From NCBI RefSeq assembly GCF_017515565.1, contig NZ_JAFWFN010000031.1, forward strand, positions 44,765 through 108,764: a DNA stretch of 64,000 nt. The letters are read 5' to 3'. Under the pieces are notes generated by a model that was not told the DNA's origin, did not search any database, and saw only the letters and a program-made list of their open reading frames with translations. The translations under genes and the position numbers were made by a program. This DNA is from Halomonas sp. (GTDB lineage: Bacteria > Pseudomonadota > Gammaproteobacteria > Pseudomonadales > Halomonadaceae). Shown here in pieces: positions 23,332-32,516 of the stretch (positions are counted from its first letter, which is position 1; each line of letters opens with the position of its first letter).

Positions 23332-23607
23332 TTAGCGCTTATATTGCGTTGGGCAGTAGCCCCGTAAAACATCGGGTGATCGCAACGCAGTGTGCTTAGT
23401 CGCGCGGCCGGTGACACGTTTACGCCATAGCCGAAATGAAGCGGGTTTTAACTGGTGTCGCATTACCTCAATGACATCCGGCTCGCCCAAGCCAAACAGC
23501 CCTTCGATGGCTTCAAACGGCGTGCGGTCTTCCCAGGCCATCTCGATAACTCGAGATTGCTCTTCTTCTGGGAGTCGGCGAAAGCGTTTCACGGCAGCTT
23601 TAGGCAT
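23332..23607 (-). CDS. TIGR03643-like small conserved protein
   Basis: A 91-residue basic protein with a helical N-terminal part (RRLPEEEQSRVIEMAWEDRTPF), a GLGEPDVIEVMRH segment and a C-terminal FRLWRKRVTGRATKH stretch. The architecture resembles a small helix-turn-helix and matches my memory of the TIGR03643 family, whose function is unknown. A longer reading to 23685 exists, but ATG at 23607 (MPKAAVKRF) starts the conserved region. No signal peptide or membrane segment. In other bacteria this family often neighbours photolyase or cryptochrome-type genes; none is visible here. Confidence 0.72.
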   Translation of the reverse strand: MPKAAVKRFRRLPEEEQSRVIEMAWEDRTPFEAIEGLFGLGEPDVIEVMRHQLKPASFRLWRKRVTGRATKHTALRSPDVLRGYCPTQYKR

Positions 23608-23759
23608 TGGGCACCCTGCGTATTGATGATAAGTGGAGCGTACAAGTAGTAAATAATTGTTTGTACCAACATTATACGCAATCATCTTGAATGTACTAGA
23701 AGTGAGGGTTGAAATTAAGGTTTTCTGAACAGACTGCCTAGTAAAGTGCGCAATAAGGA

Positions 23760-26725: not shown

Positions 26726-26789
26726 AGCCAATGTTGCATTCATTAAGCGGTAGTGAAACGCTGGATATCCCACTTTTTGAGGAGTCACC

Positions 26790-27293
26790 ATGACGTTAAC
26801 CTTTACCGATCCAAGCGAGCAGCAGCGCTGGTATGCCGTGGACGATGGCGTAATGGGCGGCGAGTCCCATAGTGGGTTTCGTATTGAAGAAGAGACAGGC
26901 TGCTTTTATGGCGAGGTCTCATTGGAAAACGGCGGCGGCTTTGCCTCTGTACGCCGCGAGCCTAACCACGTTGAACAATCGCTTACCCAGGGCGAGGGCT
27001 TAAGGCTTCGGGTGCGCGGCGATGGTCGCACCTACCAGCTGCGTTTAAAAAGTACTGCATTAGAGGATGCCAGTGCCTATCGGGTAACGTTCACGCCTAC
27101 CAAAGATGAGTGGGAAACGTGGGATTTTCCTTGGCATAGCTTTGAAGCCGTGCGCCGCGGCACGCTGCTTGGCAGTGCGCCGCTGCTAGATCCTGAAAGC
27201 ATTCATCAAATTGGTTTTTTAATTGCCGACAGAACCGCTGGGCCATTTGCTCTCTACGTATTGAGACTAGAGGCGTTGAGCGGAAATAAGTAG
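26790..27293 (+). CDS. CIA30 family (complex I intermediate-associated protein 30-like)
   Basis: A 167-residue protein with the NADH:ubiquinone oxidoreductase intermediate-associated protein 30 fold, a galactose-binding-like beta-sandwich. Signature parts are the N-terminal WYAVDDGVMGGESHSGF (conserved DGVMGG), GEVSLENGGGFASVR near residue 48, LRVRGDGRTYQLRL near 73 and the ending IGFLIADRTAGPFALYVLRLEAL. Bacterial members are of unclear function and not tied to complex I. Start ATG at 26790 follows GAGG. It stands between eutC and the pyp module on the same strand. Confidence 0.88.
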   Translation: MTLTFTDPSEQQRWYAVDDGVMGGESHSGFRIEEETGCFYGEVSLENGGGFASVRREPNHVEQSLTQGEGLRLRVRGDGRTYQLRLKSTALEDASAYRVTFTPTKDEWETWDFPWHSFEAVRRGTLLGSAPLLDPESIHQIGFLIADRTAGPFALYVLRLEALSGNK

Positions 27294-27385
27294 AACGTTT
27301 TTCGTATCTCATTAAATAGTATTAGCTGATTGCTTTGAGGCCCTGATACTGCTAAATTCGAAAGGTGGTTCAATTTATGTATACC

Positions 27386-27397
27386 TTTTGTACAAAA
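27386..27397. promoter_or_regulatory. 12-bp palindrome in the pyp upstream region
   Basis: TTTTGTACAAAA is a perfect palindrome 50 bases before the pyp start, in the AT-rich stretch that should hold the promoter. No recognised regulator site matches. It may be an operator; chance cannot be excluded at this length in AT-rich sequence. Confidence 0.35.
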
Positions 27398-27446
27398 TTT
27401 AAAGTATTCAATGCGTCTGCAGGGTACTCAAACAGGAGATGTGGTA

Positions 27447-27830
27447 ATGGCGATGGAAACAGTGCGTTTCGGCGGCGATGATATTGAAAATGCCCTAGCC
27501 AATATGGATGACAAAAAGCTTGATACGCTGGCTTTTGGCGCCATTCAATTAGATGCTAATGGCAAAATCATTCAATACAACGCAGCGGAAGGCGGTATTA
27601 CCGGTCGTGACCCTAAAAGCGTCATTGGCAAAAATTTCTTTACTGAAGTTGCTCCCTGCACGCAAAGCAAAGAATTTCAGGGGCGTTTTAAGGAAGGCGT
27701 TAAAAATGGTGACTTAAACACCATGTTTGAGTACGTGTTTGATTATCAGATGACGCCCACAAAAGTAAAAGTGCACATGAAAAAGGCGCTTTCTGGAGAT
27801 ACTTTCTGGATTTTCGTTAAACGCTTATAA
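27447..27830 (+). CDS. pyp: Photoactive yellow protein (PYP), blue-light receptor
   Basis: A 127-residue PAS-fold blue-light photoreceptor that binds p-coumaric acid as a thioester and undergoes a trans-cis photocycle. Every key residue of Halorhodospira halophila PYP is present with a +2 offset: Tyr44, Glu48, Thr52 and Arg54 (chromophore pocket), Cys71 in VAPCTQ (thioester attachment), Tyr100 and Met102 (Tyr98 and Met100 there). Long stretches, such as the [18 protein letters not shown] segment, match H. halophila PYP as I recall it. Start ATG at 27447 has AGGAG 8 bases upstream. It is followed by a terminator-like hairpin and then the chromophore genes. Free-standing PAS with no output domain, so the partner is unknown. 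Confidence 0.97.
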
Positions 27831-27847
27831 CCCAGATTACCCAAGGG

Positions 27848-27884
27848 CCGCCCGCTCAATGGATACTATGAGTGGGCGGTTTTG
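27848..27884 (+). terminator. Terminator/attenuator between pyp and the CoA ligase gene
   Basis: CCGCCCGCTCA (27848-27858), a 10-base loop, TGAGTGGGCGG (27869-27879), then TTTTGTGTTT. The 11-bp stem contains one G-T pair and is followed by T-rich sequence. It lies 18 bases past the pyp stop and 45 bases before the ligase start. It should give abundant pyp mRNA and limited read-through into the two enzymes. Confidence 0.8.
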
Positions 27885-27928
27885 TGTTTAAACCGTACGA
27901 TATTTCTGGCGTTATTAAGGATCATCAG

Positions 27929-29059
27929 ATGCCTCAGTGGCTAAGCGAAGCCGATTGCAAGGCGGTACTGCAATCTCTGCTAAGCGCTGAACTCGCTGCC
28001 TACCGCGGAACTCCCGCGCCAGACTGGCAAAGTTCGCCCTCCATCGACTCCCTCGAAAGACTGCATCTCGCCGCCTGTGTAAATGAATACTTCCGTTTAC
28101 ATGAAACAGGGGTGGAAGATCGTCTTCTTATGACTCGGCACATTGATGACTGGGCAGCCATTGTGGCGCAGGCGCTCGATGATACGTCCGGCCTTACGTT
28201 TCGCACGTCTGGGAGTACAGGCGCTCCGACCGCCCACTTACACCGTTGGGAGGATATAGAAGCAGAAGTGAAGGCGTTAATACGCCGCTTAGCGCCTGTG
28301 ATGCCAGTTAACCGTGTCATAGGGTGGTTGCCGGTACATCACCTTTACGGTTTTATGTGGGGAGTGGCGCTACCCCGGTTGATGGGCGCAACACGCATAA
28401 CTGTCGAGCATGCTGTTCCACCTGCCTTAACGCCTGGCGATCTGCTGGTGACTGTGCCGCCCTGCTGGGACTACCTGGCAAACACTCGCAAGGGGTGGCC
28501 TGAAAACGTGACGGGCGTCTCGTCATCGGCACCCCTTTCGGCGGTTACGTCTAACGCGCTGGCCGAGCAAGGCTTAGCTGGTTTGCTCGATATTTATGGC
28601 AGTACAGAAACCGGTGGTGTGGCAACCCGTTGGCGTGCCTCTGATCCCTACCAGCTGCTAACCCACTGGCAACGCCACGATACACAGCACCTTCAGCGCG
28701 TTAATAGTGATCACCCGGTTCCGCTTCTGGACGCTACGCAGTGGGTCGACGACACCCGCTTTATCGTGAAAGGTCGGTTTGATGATGTCGTCATCATCGG
28801 TGGTGTTAACGTCAGCCCCCAGCATGTCGCGCGGAATCTATGCGCGTTAACCGGTGTTGCCGACTGTAGTGTGCGCGTCACAGGGTCTGCTTCATCGCCG
28901 CGTTTAAAGGCGTTCGTGGTTCCTGCGCAAGATGAACATGAAACAGCCAGTACGATTGCCCAAGCCACGGCCCAATGGCCAGCAGCAGAGCGCCCGGTAA
29001 GCGTTACTTATGGTGCATCGCTACCAACTAATGCGATGGGCAAACTCACTGATTGGTAA
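27929..29059 (+). CDS. pcl: p-Coumaroyl-CoA ligase of the PYP-activation type
   Basis: Activates p-coumaric acid as its CoA thioester, the donor for PYP chromophore attachment. The 376-residue protein is a compact acyl-adenylate ligase, far shorter than plant 4-coumarate:CoA ligases (about 550), as expected of the PYP-associated family (TIGR02372). Motifs: phosphate loop RTSGSTGAPTA (about 95; the usual Lys after Pro is absent), DIYGSTETGG (about 222), VKGRFDDVVIIGGVNVSP (about 280) and the C-terminal PTNAMGKL with the catalytic Lys. An upstream start at 27872 overlaps the hairpin; ATG at 27929 with AAGGA is preferred. The tal gene follows after 22 bases. Confidence 0.9.
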   Translation: MPQWLSEADCKAVLQSLLSAELAAYRGTPAPDWQSSPSIDSLERLHLAACVNEYFRLHETGVEDRLLMTRHIDDWAAIVAQALDDTSGLTFRTSGSTGAPTAHLHRWEDIEAEVKALIRRLAPVMPVNRVIGWLPVHHLYGFMWGVALPRLMGATRITVEHAVPPALTPGDLLVTVPPCWDYLANTRKGWPENVTGVSSSAPLSAVTSNALAEQGLAGLLDIYGSTETGGVATRWRASDPYQLLTHWQRHDTQHLQRVNSDHPVPLLDATQWVDDTRFIVKGRFDDVVIIGGVNVSPQHVARNLCALTGVADCSVRVTGSASSPRLKAFVVPAQDEHETASTIAQATAQWPAAERPVSVTYGASLPTNAMGKLTDW

Positions 29060-29081
29060 TTTTTGTACAGGAAGTGCTGTT

Positions 29082-30650
29082 ATGAACGATGGCTCTCGGA
29101 CGTTAGAAGAGATTGAAAACATCGCCCTTGGGCGTCAGGTGCTTGTGCTGTCGCAAGAAGAAAAACGAGCGAGCGCAAAAGCACACGCTTTTCTGTGCGA
29201 CGCTATTAACCAACGACGCCGTATCTACGGGGTTACTACAGGGTATGGGCCGCTAGCCACTACGGACGTAGACCCAAAGCAGTCAGCGCTTCTGCAGCAG
29301 AATTTGGTTTATCACCTGTGTAGCGGCGTTGGAGAGCCGCTGGCACACACCCATGTACGGGCCATGATGGTGGCGCGCGTCGCGAGCCTAGTTCGCGGAC
29401 ACTCCGGCGCGAACCCTTTAGTCATAGAGCGGCTGCTTGCCTGGCTTGAGGCGGACGTGGTGCCGGAAGTGCCTTCGCGAGGCACGGTAGGGGCGAGCGG
29501 CGATTTAACGCCGCTGGCGCACCTAGCCCGCGCATTGAGCGGTGAAGGCAGAGTGAGCCTGCGTGGCGGCCGTTGGATCGAAAGCGCCGATGCTCACCGG
29601 CAATTGGGTTGGGAGCCGCTTGTCCTACAAGGCAAAGATGCGATTGCGCTCGTCAACGGCACATCCACCACGGCGGGGATCGCGGCGTTAAATGCCACCG
29701 CTGCGCAACGAGCGGTAAAACTCAGTGCCTTACTGGTACTGCTTTACTCGGAACTACTGGGAGGGCATCGCGAGGCGTTTCATCCGTTGATCGGCAAGCT
29801 TCGTCCACACCCAGGCCAGCGGCAGCTTCATGAGTGGCTTTGGTCGCTATCAGCAACTAGCGATGCACTCATACCTTGGAGGCCCGTATCGGAGCAGCTT
29901 CCAGACATGCCGAGTGATATTACCCAGCACCGGCCGCTACCCCAAGATGCTTATACGCTGCGCTGTGCACCCCAGGCGTTAGGTGCCGTGTGGGACGTTG
30001 TTGAGCAACATGCGCAAACGGTGCGTATCGAACTGGAAGCAGTCACTGATAACCCGCTACTGTTTGCCGATGACGGCCTGATTTTGCACGGTGGGAATTT
30101 TTTTGGGCAGCACTTAGCCTTTGCCAGCGATCACCTCAACAATGCGCTCATTCAGATGGCGCTTTACAGCGAGCGTCGCATTGCAAGAATTACCGACCCT
30201 TTAAAAAACAAGGGGCTTCCCGCCTTTATGCAGCCGCTTGATACGGGGTTGCACAGCGGTTTTATGGGAGCTCAGGTGAGTGCCACGGCGCTAGTGGCTG
30301 AATTACGTAGCCACGCCATGCCCGCTTCTATTCAGTCTATTCCTACGAATGCGGATAATCAGGATATCGTGCCGCTGGGAACCATTGCCGCACGCCGCGC
30401 AAGCACGAGTTTAGAGCAGCTTTACCAAATCTTAGCGATCGAAGCCTTGGTGCTGGTGCAGGGCGCTGAATTGAAGAACACCCACGCGCTTAGCCATGCT
30501 TCCCAAGTAGTGTGCCGCTGGGTTCGAGAAACGATCCGCCCGCTTGAGCAAGACCGCCCTTTATCAGAAGACATTACCCAACTCTCAAAGATGCTTGCCG
30601 ACCCAGACCATGTCGCTCCGCTAATGGCACTGCTAGATACAACCTCGTAG
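29082..30650 (+). CDS. tal: Tyrosine ammonia-lyase (HAL/PAL family), PYP chromophore synthesis
   Basis: Deaminates L-tyrosine to trans-p-coumaric acid. The 522-residue protein has the Ala138-Ser139-Gly140 triad in TVGASGDLTPLAHL that cyclises to the MIO electrophile, the catalytic Tyr in RIYGVTTGYG (Tyr49 and neighbours), and the selectivity pair His78-Leu79 in NLVYHLCSGVG, matching His89-Leu90 of Rhodobacter TAL (tyrosine-preferring) rather than the Ser-His of histidine ammonia-lyases. No hut genes adjoin it. An upstream start at 29010 lies inside the ligase gene; ATG at 29082 with AGGAAG is preferred. With pyp and pcl it completes the module. A hairpin without T-run follows. Confidence 0.93.
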   Translation: MNDGSRTLEEIENIALGRQVLVLSQEEKRASAKAHAFLCDAINQRRRIYGVTTGYGPLATTDVDPKQSALLQQNLVYHLCSGVGEPLAHTHVRAMMVARVASLVRGHSGANPLVIERLLAWLEADVVPEVPSRGTVGASGDLTPLAHLARALSGEGRVSLRGGRWIESADAHRQLGWEPLVLQGKDAIALVNGTSTTAGIAALNATAAQRAVKLSALLVLLYSELLGGHREAFHPLIGKLRPHPGQRQLHEWLWSLSATSDALIPWRPVSEQLPDMPSDITQHRPLPQDAYTLRCAPQALGAVWDVVEQHAQTVRIELEAVTDNPLLFADDGLILHGGNFFGQHLAFASDHLNNALIQMALYSERRIARITDPLKNKGLPAFMQPLDTGLHSGFMGAQVSATALVAELRSHAMPASIQSIPTNADNQDIVPLGTIAARRASTSLEQLYQILAIEALVLVQGAELKNTHALSHASQVVCRWVRETIRPLEQDRPLSEDITQLSKMLADPDHVAPLMALLDTTS

Positions 30651-30749: not shown

Positions 30750-32516
30750 ATGAAACTTTCTCCTGCGTATCGCTTAGCAGCCACAATTCTGCATGGTTTT
30801 GATGCCTATCGTGGGCGTTTTAAACAGATCACGGCGGACGCCAGTCGTCGTTTCCGCGATGCTGCGTGGCGCGAAGCGCAGCAAGCGTCCGCTGCCCGTA
30901 TCAACCTCTACGAAGAGCGGGTAGGCGATACCCTAGAGCGTTTGCAGCGCACTTTTGACCATGATGTGCTGGCGCACTGTGAAACCTGGGGGGAAGCCCG
31001 CGGTCACTATGCCGAAATGATTGCCCAGCGGCTGGATTACGAGCTGGCGGAGACGTTTTTCAACTCACTGTTTTGCTCAGTGTTTCACTATCGCCACATC
31101 CGTAACGACTGGATGTTTGTTTACAGCTCCCGTGAAGACGCTGCCCACCACTCCGGCATTGAGCTGTGCCGAAGGCAAGCAGTAAACGGCGACTGGCAAG
31201 CAGCACTGGCCTGGGCGCTGGATGAGGCACCGTTTGACAACCCATTTGCTGACTTGGAGGGCGATATTGCCCTAGGGGCCGATCTGCTGAAAAGCCAGCT
31301 CCCAGCGGCTATTTTGGAGGCAGCAGATGCCCAGATTGAGCTGCTAAAAAACGTCTTTTATCGTAACAAAGGAGCGTACTTGGTGGGCCGTATTTTAGGC
31401 GGCGGCGAGCAGGTGCCGTTGGTACTGCCAGTGCTTCACGGCGAAGGCTTTGGCGAGCAGCAGGGCGGTGACCCTTGCCTACACTTGGATACCGTGCTGA
31501 CAGAAACGGATGAAGTCTCGATTATCTTCTCGTTTACCCGCGCCTATTTTCAGGTGGAAGTACCGGTGCCGAGCGAATTTGTCAGCTACCTAAAGCGGCT
31601 AATGCCCCATAAGCCTGAAAGTGAGCTGTATGCTGCGATTGGCTTTTTTAAGTACGGCAAAACGGCTTTTTTCCGGGCGCTTAATCTGCAGGTTGCTAAG
31701 CGCGAAGATCAGTTTATTATCGCGCCCGGTGTTCGTGGCATGGTGATGGCGGTGTTTGTACTGCCCAGCTTTCGCACCGTCTTTAAGATCATTAAAGATA
31801 AATTTGACCCCGCCAAGGAGGTTACCCACGCGGTGGTGCGCGAGAAGTACCGGCTGGTAAAGCGCCACGATCGGGTGGGGCGAATGGCGGATACCCAGGA
31901 ATTCTCAAACTTTATCGTCCGCAAAGACCACTTCGCGCCGGACTGCCTAGAGCATCTGCTGGAGGTCGCGCCCTCTACGGTATCGCTTAAAGATGACAAG
32001 GTGATCATCAAGCACTGCTACACCGAGCGGATGATGACACCGCTCAATATCTATCTTGAGCAGTGCAGCGCCGATGAGCAGGTGATGGTGCTCAAGGATT
32101 ACGGCAACGCCATCAAGCAGATGGCGGCGGCAAATATTTTTCCTGGCGATATGCTGCTGAAAAACTTCGGTGTCACCCGCCATGGGCGGGTGATTTTTTA
32201 CGATTACGATGAGGTCAGCTACCTCACCGAGTGTCGTTTTCGGCACATTCCCAAATCCTACGGCAATGACTTTCAAGGGTGTGGGGCCGAGAGCTTTTCC
32301 ATTGGCCCCAACGACATCTTTCCTGAGGAGTTTGGCCCCTTCATGTTTGCCAACCCCGCGCTTCGCGCTGTTTTTATGCAGCAGCATCCTGAGCTGTTTG
32401 ACCCGGACTACTGGCTGGAACTGCAGCAGGCGATTATTGATGGGCGGGTGATTGATGTTTATCCCTACCGCAATAAACAGCGTTTCGCAGGAACGATAGG
32501 GCAGCTGGTATATTAA
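30750..32516 (+). CDS. aceK: Isocitrate dehydrogenase kinase/phosphatase AceK
   Basis: Bifunctional enzyme that phosphorylates isocitrate dehydrogenase to divert isocitrate into the glyoxylate bypass and reverses this when the bypass is not needed. The 588-residue length matches E. coli AceK (578). The ATP-binding region includes IIAPGVRGMVMAVFVLPSF (about 325) and the catalytic part NIFPGDMLLKNFGVTRHGRVIFYDYDE (about 460-490) with the Asp, Asn and DYDE metal motif. It stands alone here without aceB/aceA, unlike the enterobacterial operon. The ribosome-binding site is weak. Confidence 0.96.
   Translation: MKLSPAYRLAATILHGFDAYRGRFKQITADASRRFRDAAWREAQQASAARINLYEERVGDTLERLQRTFDHDVLAHCETWGEARGHYAEMIAQRLDYELAETFFNSLFCSVFHYRHIRNDWMFVYSSREDAAHHSGIELCRRQAVNGDWQAALAWALDEAPFDNPFADLEGDIALGADLLKSQLPAAILEAADAQIELLKNVFYRNKGAYLVGRILGGGEQVPLVLPVLHGEGFGEQQGGDPCLHLDTVLTETDEVSIIFSFTRAYFQVEVPVPSEFVSYLKRLMPHKPESELYAAIGFFKYGKTAFFRALNLQVAKREDQFIIAPGVRGMVMAVFVLPSFRTVFKIIKDKFDPAKEVTHAVVREKYRLVKRHDRVGRMADTQEFSNFIVRKDHFAPDCLEHLLEVAPSTVSLKDDKVIIKHCYTERMMTPLNIYLEQCSADEQVMVLKDYGNAIKQMAAANIFPGDMLLKNFGVTRHGRVIFYDYDEVSYLTECRFRHIPKSYGNDFQGCGAESFSIGPNDIFPEEFGPFMFANPALRAVFMQQHPELFDPDYWLELQQAIIDGRVIDVYPYRNKQRFAGTIGQLVY

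Follow-up and report, generated by a model that had tools for sequence, protein, structure and literature searches.

What a light sensor signals to, and when the sensor is made, are questions raised by a pyp-pcl-tal cluster, encoding photoactive yellow protein (PYP), a p-coumarate:CoA ligase and a tyrosine ammonia-lyase, in a 64-kb stretch of Halomonas DNA (64,000 nucleotides, hereafter the window). The PYP signalling chain is named as an important gap in a 2025 survey that sought PYP partners in fusions and predicted operons (PMC12826048). From the evidence below we consider it fairly probable that the window carries an inserted PYP module with its own LitR-switched promoter, a partial terminator, and an output running through co-regulated, unlinked proteins.

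Loci are designated by L-numbers and genomes by G-numbers; G000 is the genome containing the window, and C-numbers are its contigs. G000 (3.76 Mb, one PYP) has synteny in common with the Vreelandella and Halomonas loci L031-L043, and because of this synteny the host is taken to be a member of the Vreelandella/Halomonas group.

The PYP module is an insertion without an adjacent signalling partner

The neighbours of the module in the window are eutBC, cia30, aceK, sir2 and bio genes. A sequence-only reading of this DNA had described the PYP as having no fused or adjacent kinase or cyclase partner, and this was borne out: a motif search for kinases, cyclases and chemoreceptors within 5 kb of pyp found none, and the neighbours are not candidates. 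We located cia30 in 58 of the 82 genomes of the genus and fetched 30 of these loci, 17 of them from PYP-less genomes. In all 17, aceK lies shortly 3' of cia30 with no pyp between them (the aceK of G223 has an interrupted frame). The two genes also adjoin in G232, whose pyp sits elsewhere. Since cia30 and aceK adjoin in PYP-less relatives, the module is an insertion between them and neither gene is its partner; cia30, considered as a candidate, was ruled out by this empty site.

In 81 loci sampled from the nearest relatives, the motif search picked up signalling proteins no more than about 5 kb from pyp in 18, the window not among them. Adjacent partner genes were also sought, and rejected, by clustering the open reading frames (ORFs) of these loci. 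Among the 45 clusters listed, only pcl and tal, apart from pyp itself, spread widely across genera, and the others were confined to few loci or to one genus; one ORF cluster (13 loci) resembles an antisense frame of pyp. The telling context of pyp is its promoter, not the adjacent genes.

A putative LitR/CarH-type operator in the pyp promoter

TGTAYA-type repeats first became visible in a listing of the pyp upstream regions. Places were scored, out of 12, for the half-site T(G/A)TACA repeated at an 11-bp period. This half-site is published for PplR1 (PMC9758184), and CarH operators are described as tandem 11-bp repeats, nnnnTnnACAn / TnnACA (PMC9304148). The pyp operator (Table 1) is, at 12/12, the best place in the window, and a weaker additional repeat lies one period on, at 27367. 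Besides these, only one place in the window scores 10 or more, 55 bp before a DUF2805 gene. As to membership in the LitR regulon, the pyp promoter thus holds an operator of the published kind, with the CarH period and not that of PplR1; the PplR1-type pattern (N12, at most 2 mismatches) was no commoner in the window than expected by chance. A GATrCTGCTAATTT-like stretch also recurs 5' of pyp across the Vreelandella/Halomonas loci, and the putative sigma70 promoter of pyp was not among the hits of a generic promoter scan.

When the spacing between half-sites was varied, the mean best score in 32 Halomonad and near promoters peaked at 11 bp, with 22 bp next, and 22 of 87 regions gave a shuffle p<=0.05; this 87-region scan omits L091 (<120 nt upstream) and adds seven loci (L023 repeats L046) outside the 79 promoters counted below. 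A TRTACA-N5-TRTACA repeat scoring 11-12 is present in 13 of 79 pyp promoters, L063 lying outside the 79 as it begins at pyp. Seven of the 13 are Halomonad, four are from Ectothiorhodospiraceae or Aquisalimonas and two from Pseudomonas. By comparison, a score of 11 is reached by none of the 1022 regions that precede other ORFs at these loci (Fisher 6e-16, kinship ignored).

The 1022 controls are the 160 bases before each mechanically called ORF of >=150 amino acids, and because they include in-operon and antisense ORFs, intergenic and AT-matched subsets were used as well. None of 497 intergenic controls reaches 11. At an AT content >=0.5, 8/57 pyp promoters do so against 0/291 controls (p 3e-7), and at >=0.55, 4/42 against 0/191 (p 9e-4). 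Among mononucleotide-shuffled pyp promoters the score is reached in 29/7900 (0.4%). The spacing control matters most, because the motif was settled on after the promoters had been viewed: 13 pyp promoters reach 11 at the 11-bp spacing, and 0-3 at the other spacings from 7 to 18.

A LitR-like regulator accompanies the operator

G000 has four MerR_1 matches, one of which is its single LitR-like protein, of 309 amino acids, encoded at C29:8820-9749, outside the window. The protein matches PF13411 above cut-off and the B12-binding PF02310 below it (21.8 of 32.1). Its closest solved relative is CarH 5c8d, and in the alignment the Glu-His and His positions of 5c8d, which we take to be the adenosylcobalamin ligands of CarH, are replaced, which is not the pattern of a class I LitR. 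Because these ligand positions are replaced, we call the protein, from the alignment, a class II LitR. In its cluster, an epimerase gene is divergent from an FAD oxidoreductase gene, followed by litR and, as the next gene, a photolyase gene; further members encode a presumably SnoaL-like protein, a short-chain dehydrogenase/reductase, an amine oxidase, a DUF1365 protein and a cyclopropane synthase.

LitR is present in 262 of the 275 genomes of the family. The 11-bp repeat was found 5' of the cluster in 27 of 30 fetched litR loci, often in three copies, and it is present at the litR-photolyase cluster of G000 too. We also hand-chose 31 distant PYP genomes: eight non-family genomes, taken for having the best operators, and the rest from among 80 loci. 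Here LitR occurs in 7/8 genomes whose pyp operator scores >=10, as compared to 1/23 below that score (Fisher p 2e-5); at >=11 the proportions are 6/6 and 2/25 (p 4e-5).

The predicted operator recurs at promoters of motility and cyclic di-GMP genes

Genome-wide sites were predicted with a sequence-only model, R1, built on 35 of 78 listed sites from the promoters of pyp, litR and a PAS-PAS chemoreceptor, or methyl-accepting chemotaxis protein (MCP). The list omits the litR loci without a repeat (L159, L161, L171) and the 9 of 30 MCP loci scoring <10. R1 was used in place of the exact pattern TTGTAYN5TTGTAY, which gave two genome hits against one for its reversed control; a litR-only model was dropped, its sites being near-identical and two of them aligned one repeat out of phase. 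In G000, R1 found eight sites with E<1, followed by a gap to 5.5. Three of the eight are training sites; the pyp operator ranks third in the genome, but is itself one of them. The other five are listed in Table 1, where the gene divergent from the ABC1 kinase is one we take to be topB.

Scanning ten relatives gave 51 rows, corresponding to 49 distinct sites. These lie at ABC1/topB (9), EAL (8), litR (8), 4HB-MCP (7), PAS-PAS-MCP (6), pyp (2), a third MCP (2), YdjM (2), DUF6435 (1) and MFP/flavoprotein (1); a further site lies behind yqiA with no DUF6435 there, and two more are singletons. Members in the relatives were named by the likeness of their first residues to G000 proteins, and position served to assign three of the MCP sites and one of the pyp sites; the yqiA site (G261, at L281) resembles the DUF6435 sites in place and was left without a gene, there being no DUF6435 frame. 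Of the 49 sites, 45 belong to promoters that turned up in two or more of the eleven genomes, and 29 are at promoters outside R1 training. The MFP/flavoprotein site is an exact-pattern hit in G000 as well, while the response-regulator site of G000 has no counterpart in the ten relatives scanned. Because four of the ten (G243, G235, G220 and G251) have no PYP, the regulon is independent of the PYP module.

The divergent ABC1 kinase/topB promoter carries a LitR-type operator in 10 of the 11 genomes scanned. The DUF2805/TIGR03643 gene of the window (23332-23685, minus strand), 4 kb from pyp, has its operator-like place at 23662-23678, before the MPKAAV start; a score of 10 is found there also in L031 and L043, and the place is not among the R1 hits.

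Table 1. Features of the PYP locus in the window, and sites predicted by model R1 elsewhere in G000
Feature	Position	Strand	Basis
Host gene, cia30-like, bordering the insertion on the left, outside the module	26790..27293	+	PF08547; aceK next in PYP-less relatives
Putative sigma70 promoter of pyp, TTGCTT-N17-TAAATT, TGC extended -10	27330..27358	+	read from sequence, inferred
LitR/CarH-type operator, TGTACA-N5-TATACA, 11-bp direct repeat, core 27378-27394	27372..27400	-	12/12 half-site matches
pyp, photoactive yellow protein, single PAS domain, 127 aa	27447..27830	+	TIGR02373, PDB PYP alignments, pocket residues
Terminator-like hairpin, CCGCCCGCTCA...TGAGTGGGCGG then TTTTGTG, possible partial terminator	27844..27883	+	shuffle test
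pcl, p-coumarate:CoA ligase, 376 aa from ATG 27929	27929..29059	+	TIGR02372, PF00501
tal, tyrosine ammonia-lyase, 522 aa	29082..30650	+	PF00221, 2o6y alignment with HL, ASG
Host gene aceK, bordering the insertion on the right, outside the module	30750..32516	+	NCBIfam NF002804; empty site
ABC1 kinase divergent from presumed topB, non-training site	C32:104547 (L228)		model R1
EAL protein then PAS-GGDEF, non-training site			model R1
Response regulator then Hpt-REC-GGDEF, non-training site			model R1
4HB chemoreceptor, non-training site			model R1
DUF6435/ChaN, non-training site			model R1

Genes and products of the module

The three genes are arranged head to tail, pyp-pcl-tal. The product of pyp matches the NCBIfam equivalog TIGR02373 with 209.5 bits (cut-off 143.05) and aligns end to end with Halorhodospira halophila PYP among the PDB PYP sequences. 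In H. halophila numbering its pocket residues are Y42, E46, T50, R52, C69, Y98 and M100; all seven are present, as the sequence-only reading had stated in a numbering higher by 2, and the expected residues were found at all ten pocket positions checked, Cys69, Tyr42 and Glu46 included. Y42, E46, T50, R52, C69 and M100 are invariant in 81/81 PYPs (80 loci and the window), Y98 in 79/81. By a published trend (PMC12826048), Thr50 suggests an absorbance of the window PYP at a predicted ~445 nm.

For pcl, TIGR02372 is the best model by far, although its 330.6 bits fall slightly below the equivalog cut-off of 334.7; PF00501 matches too, and operon position supports the identity as p-coumarate:CoA ligase. 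The frame is open from GTG 27872, which sits inside the hairpin, and AAGGA directly precedes ATG 27929, the best start. The tal product is an aromatic lyase by PF00221 (490.7 bits) and, at 438.9 bits against a cut-off of 539.15, not a HutH equivalog of TIGR01225. The Ala-Ser-Gly that forms the 4-methylideneimidazole-5-one cofactor is present (TVGASGDLTPL), and the His-Leu selectivity pair in NLVYHLCSGVG aligns with NLVHHLASGVG of 2o6y, the best PDB relative, which we take to be the Rhodobacter TAL. Both features had been claimed beforehand, as had a complete module of photoreceptor and both chromophore enzymes, and these claims held; likewise, gene set and residues support the expectation that holo-PYP could be made from tyrosine alone.

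The hairpin between pyp and pcl is directly followed by TTTTGTGTTT, and its stem score was reached in 0/100 mononucleotide shuffles. It was not among the hits of a terminator scan limited to loops of 3-8. At 15 of 24 related loci a post-pyp stem score was reached in <=2/100 shuffles, with differing stem sequences; the stem is weaker or missing in L038, L043, L045, L046, L048 and L050-L053, and the T-run after it is poor in L032, L040 and L047. This hairpin probably acts as a partial terminator, stopping part of the transcripts and giving much PYP and little enzyme.

Among side observations on the flanks, 12 related loci (L031-L042) have, between eutC and cia30, a gene that we take to encode an ethanolamine permease and that is absent from the window (26726-26789); eutC is directly followed by cia30 also in G242 and G254. 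In Vreelandella andesensis (L031:13365-15364), a mobile-element gene pair, presumably MerR-like resolvase plus TnpB-like, is inserted between tal and aceK.

Repeated absence of tal beside retained pyp and pcl

PYP scores above cut-off in 32 of the 275 family genomes, 23 of them within the genus. The sequence-only reading had held PYP to be limited to few bacteria, which overrates its rarity in view of these counts and of the 984 homologs in the recent survey (PMC12826048). At the 81 loci a pcl cluster ORF is found in at least 70 and a tal cluster ORF in at least 44, both counts being lower bounds; in the survey's predicted pyp operons (n=113), TAL is found in 7 and pCL in 42 (PMC12826048).

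Of the 23 PYP-bearing genomes in the genus, 12 have an intact tal at the locus, 2 have a broken one (by a stop in G231 and into two frames in G210) and 9 have none. G232 and G237 keep PYP and pCL with no aromatic ammonia-lyase match at E<=1e-20, and on this gene content they are candidate p-coumarate scavengers. Among 18 loci of the window type, tal is intact in 10, broken in 1 and absent in 7. An aceK tree of these loci requires 5 tal changes, at least 3 of them forced by well-supported branches. The count is blind to gain versus loss; because insertion site and gene order are identical, losses are favoured. Both pyp and pcl were found over their length in the seven tal-less loci, five of which were compared for the pocket residues and retain them (L032, L035, L036, L042, L043). 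Identity to the window across the window-type loci is 67-91% for pcl and 91-99% for pyp, pcl thus being the more diverged. Repeated retention of pyp and pcl without tal predicts that some strains would run the photoreceptor on external p-coumarate.

Three further observations concern gene copies. G218 (V. massiliensis) has two PYP genes (L050/L068), one with pcl and tal and the other with neither found nearby. In G140 there is a second PYP copy, which matches weakly (58 bits). A second group of aromatic lyases, ~38% identical to the window tal and often long open frames, is scattered through the genus. The 2012 survey of PYPs by Meyer may list Halomonas PYPs.

Discussion

Judged from promoters and gene content, a LitR-type light switch probably governs PYP production in this host, and the partner, encoded elsewhere, is probably a motility or cyclic di-GMP (c-di-GMP) protein under the same control. 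We infer that a class II LitR-like MerR repressor, encoded beside the photolyase, would bind the 11-bp repeat in the dark and release it in the light. PYP would then be a fast sensor armed by light exposure, and its output would most probably go to products of the same regulon, be it the EAL phosphodiesterase with the PAS-GGDEF cyclase, the PAS-PAS chemoreceptor, the 4HB chemoreceptor, or the response regulator with Hpt-REC-GGDEF. The LitR switch predicts that PYP is made only after exposure to light.

As candidate partners, chemoreceptors and c-di-GMP enzymes stand out by belonging to the regulon, and fusions and operons suggest the same two kinds of output for other PYPs (PMC12826048). In Pandoraea (L102), a PYP-like gene, a PAS-GGDEF gene and then an EAL gene stand just ahead of pyp, this EAL protein being 47.5% identical to the regulon EAL. 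The same locus, in Pandoraea eparura, has a transposase-like pair between pyp and a partial pcl (L102:10536-11635).

A bolder reading, which we hold only tentatively, is that PYP might serve as the rapid branch of the light response under LitR in Halomonads, some Pseudomonas and Ectothiorhodospiraceae, with photoactivated PYP directly driving a co-regulated protein and perhaps LitR as well. LitR derepression in the light would install PYP along with the chemoreceptors and the c-di-GMP enzymes; the direct target could be the EAL/PAS-GGDEF pair or the PAS-PAS chemoreceptor. If this is true, single-domain PYPs would be linked to unlinked partners through a common operator, not a common operon. 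Next to fusions and operons, a common LitR-type operator would be a third, independent kind of partner link, and it names a handful of candidates. Wiring of a PYP module to a LitR/CarH-type operator common to motility and c-di-GMP genes is, as far as we searched, apparently unpublished. Among the papers listed by our searches on PYP and on LitR, no title or abstract opening connects the two; for LitR with Halomonas this covers the 10 of 87 matches listed, whose titles mostly concerned 'litre'.

Several observations weigh against a LitR switch on pyp and against the regulon drawn from it. The motif was chosen after inspection of the promoters, 55 of the 79 pyp promoters score <10, the close relatives L035, L036, L038, L039 and L043 have degenerate forms only, and the pyp operator lies downstream of the putative sigma70 promoter. 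At an AT content >=0.6 the comparison is thin (2/25 against 0/102, p 0.04). Rhodothalassium (L078) has a pyp operator scoring 10 and no LitR, L086 has LitR but no pyp operator, and the repeat at >=11 lies near litR in only 3 of 11 distant litR loci (L318, L319, L323). Most Halomonads have LitR without PYP, so PYP would be an optional input. The published footprint of Pseudomonas class II LitR is TGTACA-N12-TGTACA, with an 18-bp and not an 11-bp period (PMC9758184). Within the regulon, the R1 hits at pyp, litR and PAS-PAS-MCP are circular, being training sites; taken singly, the sites have weak E-values (0.02 to 0.5); what carries the argument is their recurrence, in genomes that are related and not independent; and the Pandoraea link is a single case in a genome without a LitR match. 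The thin comparison at AT>=0.6 and the few distant litR loci with the repeat, in particular, lower our confidence slightly.

Some of these observations would fit other explanations. The degenerate repeats in five window-type loci, the many low-scoring promoters and a gene order identical to that of H. halophila (PMC12826048) are as expected of an ordinary operon, constitutive or under an unrelated regulator, in which the AT-richness of the promoters would account for the TRTACA repeat. We think this unlikely, as the score is reached by none of the intergenic or AT-matched controls, 11 bp is the one spacing to stand out, and the operator tracks LitR and recurs at orthologous promoters in ten genomes. 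Rather more room is left for a true operator bound by another regulator of the same regulon, since LitR binding is proposed here from sequence, the published class II sites differ in period (PMC9758184), and in G238, which carries pyp, LitR gave no match at E<=1e-20. Against such a binder, the repeat is present at the 27 of 30 genus litR loci and near litR in the three distant ones, and LitR presence tracks the operator; it is improbable, though less so than a by-product of base composition.

The relation between the two proteins could also be reversed, with PYP a light-driven anti-repressor of LitR, as PmSB-LOV is of PmlR2 (PMC9758184), supplying the separate sensor that a LitR without B12 ligands would need. 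The replaced Glu-His and His positions and the sub-threshold B12-binding match of the G000 protein agree with this idea. However, LitR is found in 262 family genomes and PYP in 32, so LitR usually works without PYP, and a putative LOV-type codon pattern in 67 of the 82 genus genomes points to candidate LOV proteins that could serve instead; we regard the idea as quite unlikely. The tal counts, with two of the nine tal-less genomes lacking any lyase at E<=1e-20, raise the further thought that the PYP system is decaying in this lineage, tal first and the remainder later. Persistence of pyp and pcl in seven tal-less loci, with the pocket kept in the five compared, suggests p-coumarate uptake instead, and we regard decay as unlikely. 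A LitR-switched PYP module with unlinked, co-regulated partners thus remains our preferred explanation.

Comparison with known systems

The pyp-pcl-tal operon of H. halophila has the identical three genes in the identical order (PMC12826048), and the window PYP aligns with its PYP end to end with the pocket kept. The window differs in its Halomonad host, which is not known to be phototrophic, and the operator and the pyp-pcl hairpin are known here from the window side only.

For the PYP of Idiomarina loihiensis, an effect on biofilm by way of a GGDEF protein has been reported (PMC12826048, PMC9664959). This PYP and that of the window are single-domain PYPs of gammaproteobacteria, and a GGDEF output is among the candidates for the window. 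There is no adjacent GGDEF gene in the window; the Idiomarina pyp promoters (L055-L058) are without the operator, and LitR gave no match in five Idiomarina-named genomes (L055, L057, L060, L073, L077).

The Pseudomonas class II systems PplR1 and PmlR2/PmSB-LOV (PMC9758184) likewise have a MerR-type LitR of the class without adenosyl-B12 function, T(G/A)TACA half-sites and light-inducible genes nearby. Their class II sites have N12 between half-sites (PMC9758184), whereas the window has N5, giving the 11-bp period. CarH differs from the G000 regulator in its B12 ligands, which the latter does not have, while the period and half-site of CarH operators (PMC9304148) are identical in the pyp, litR and regulon promoters described here.

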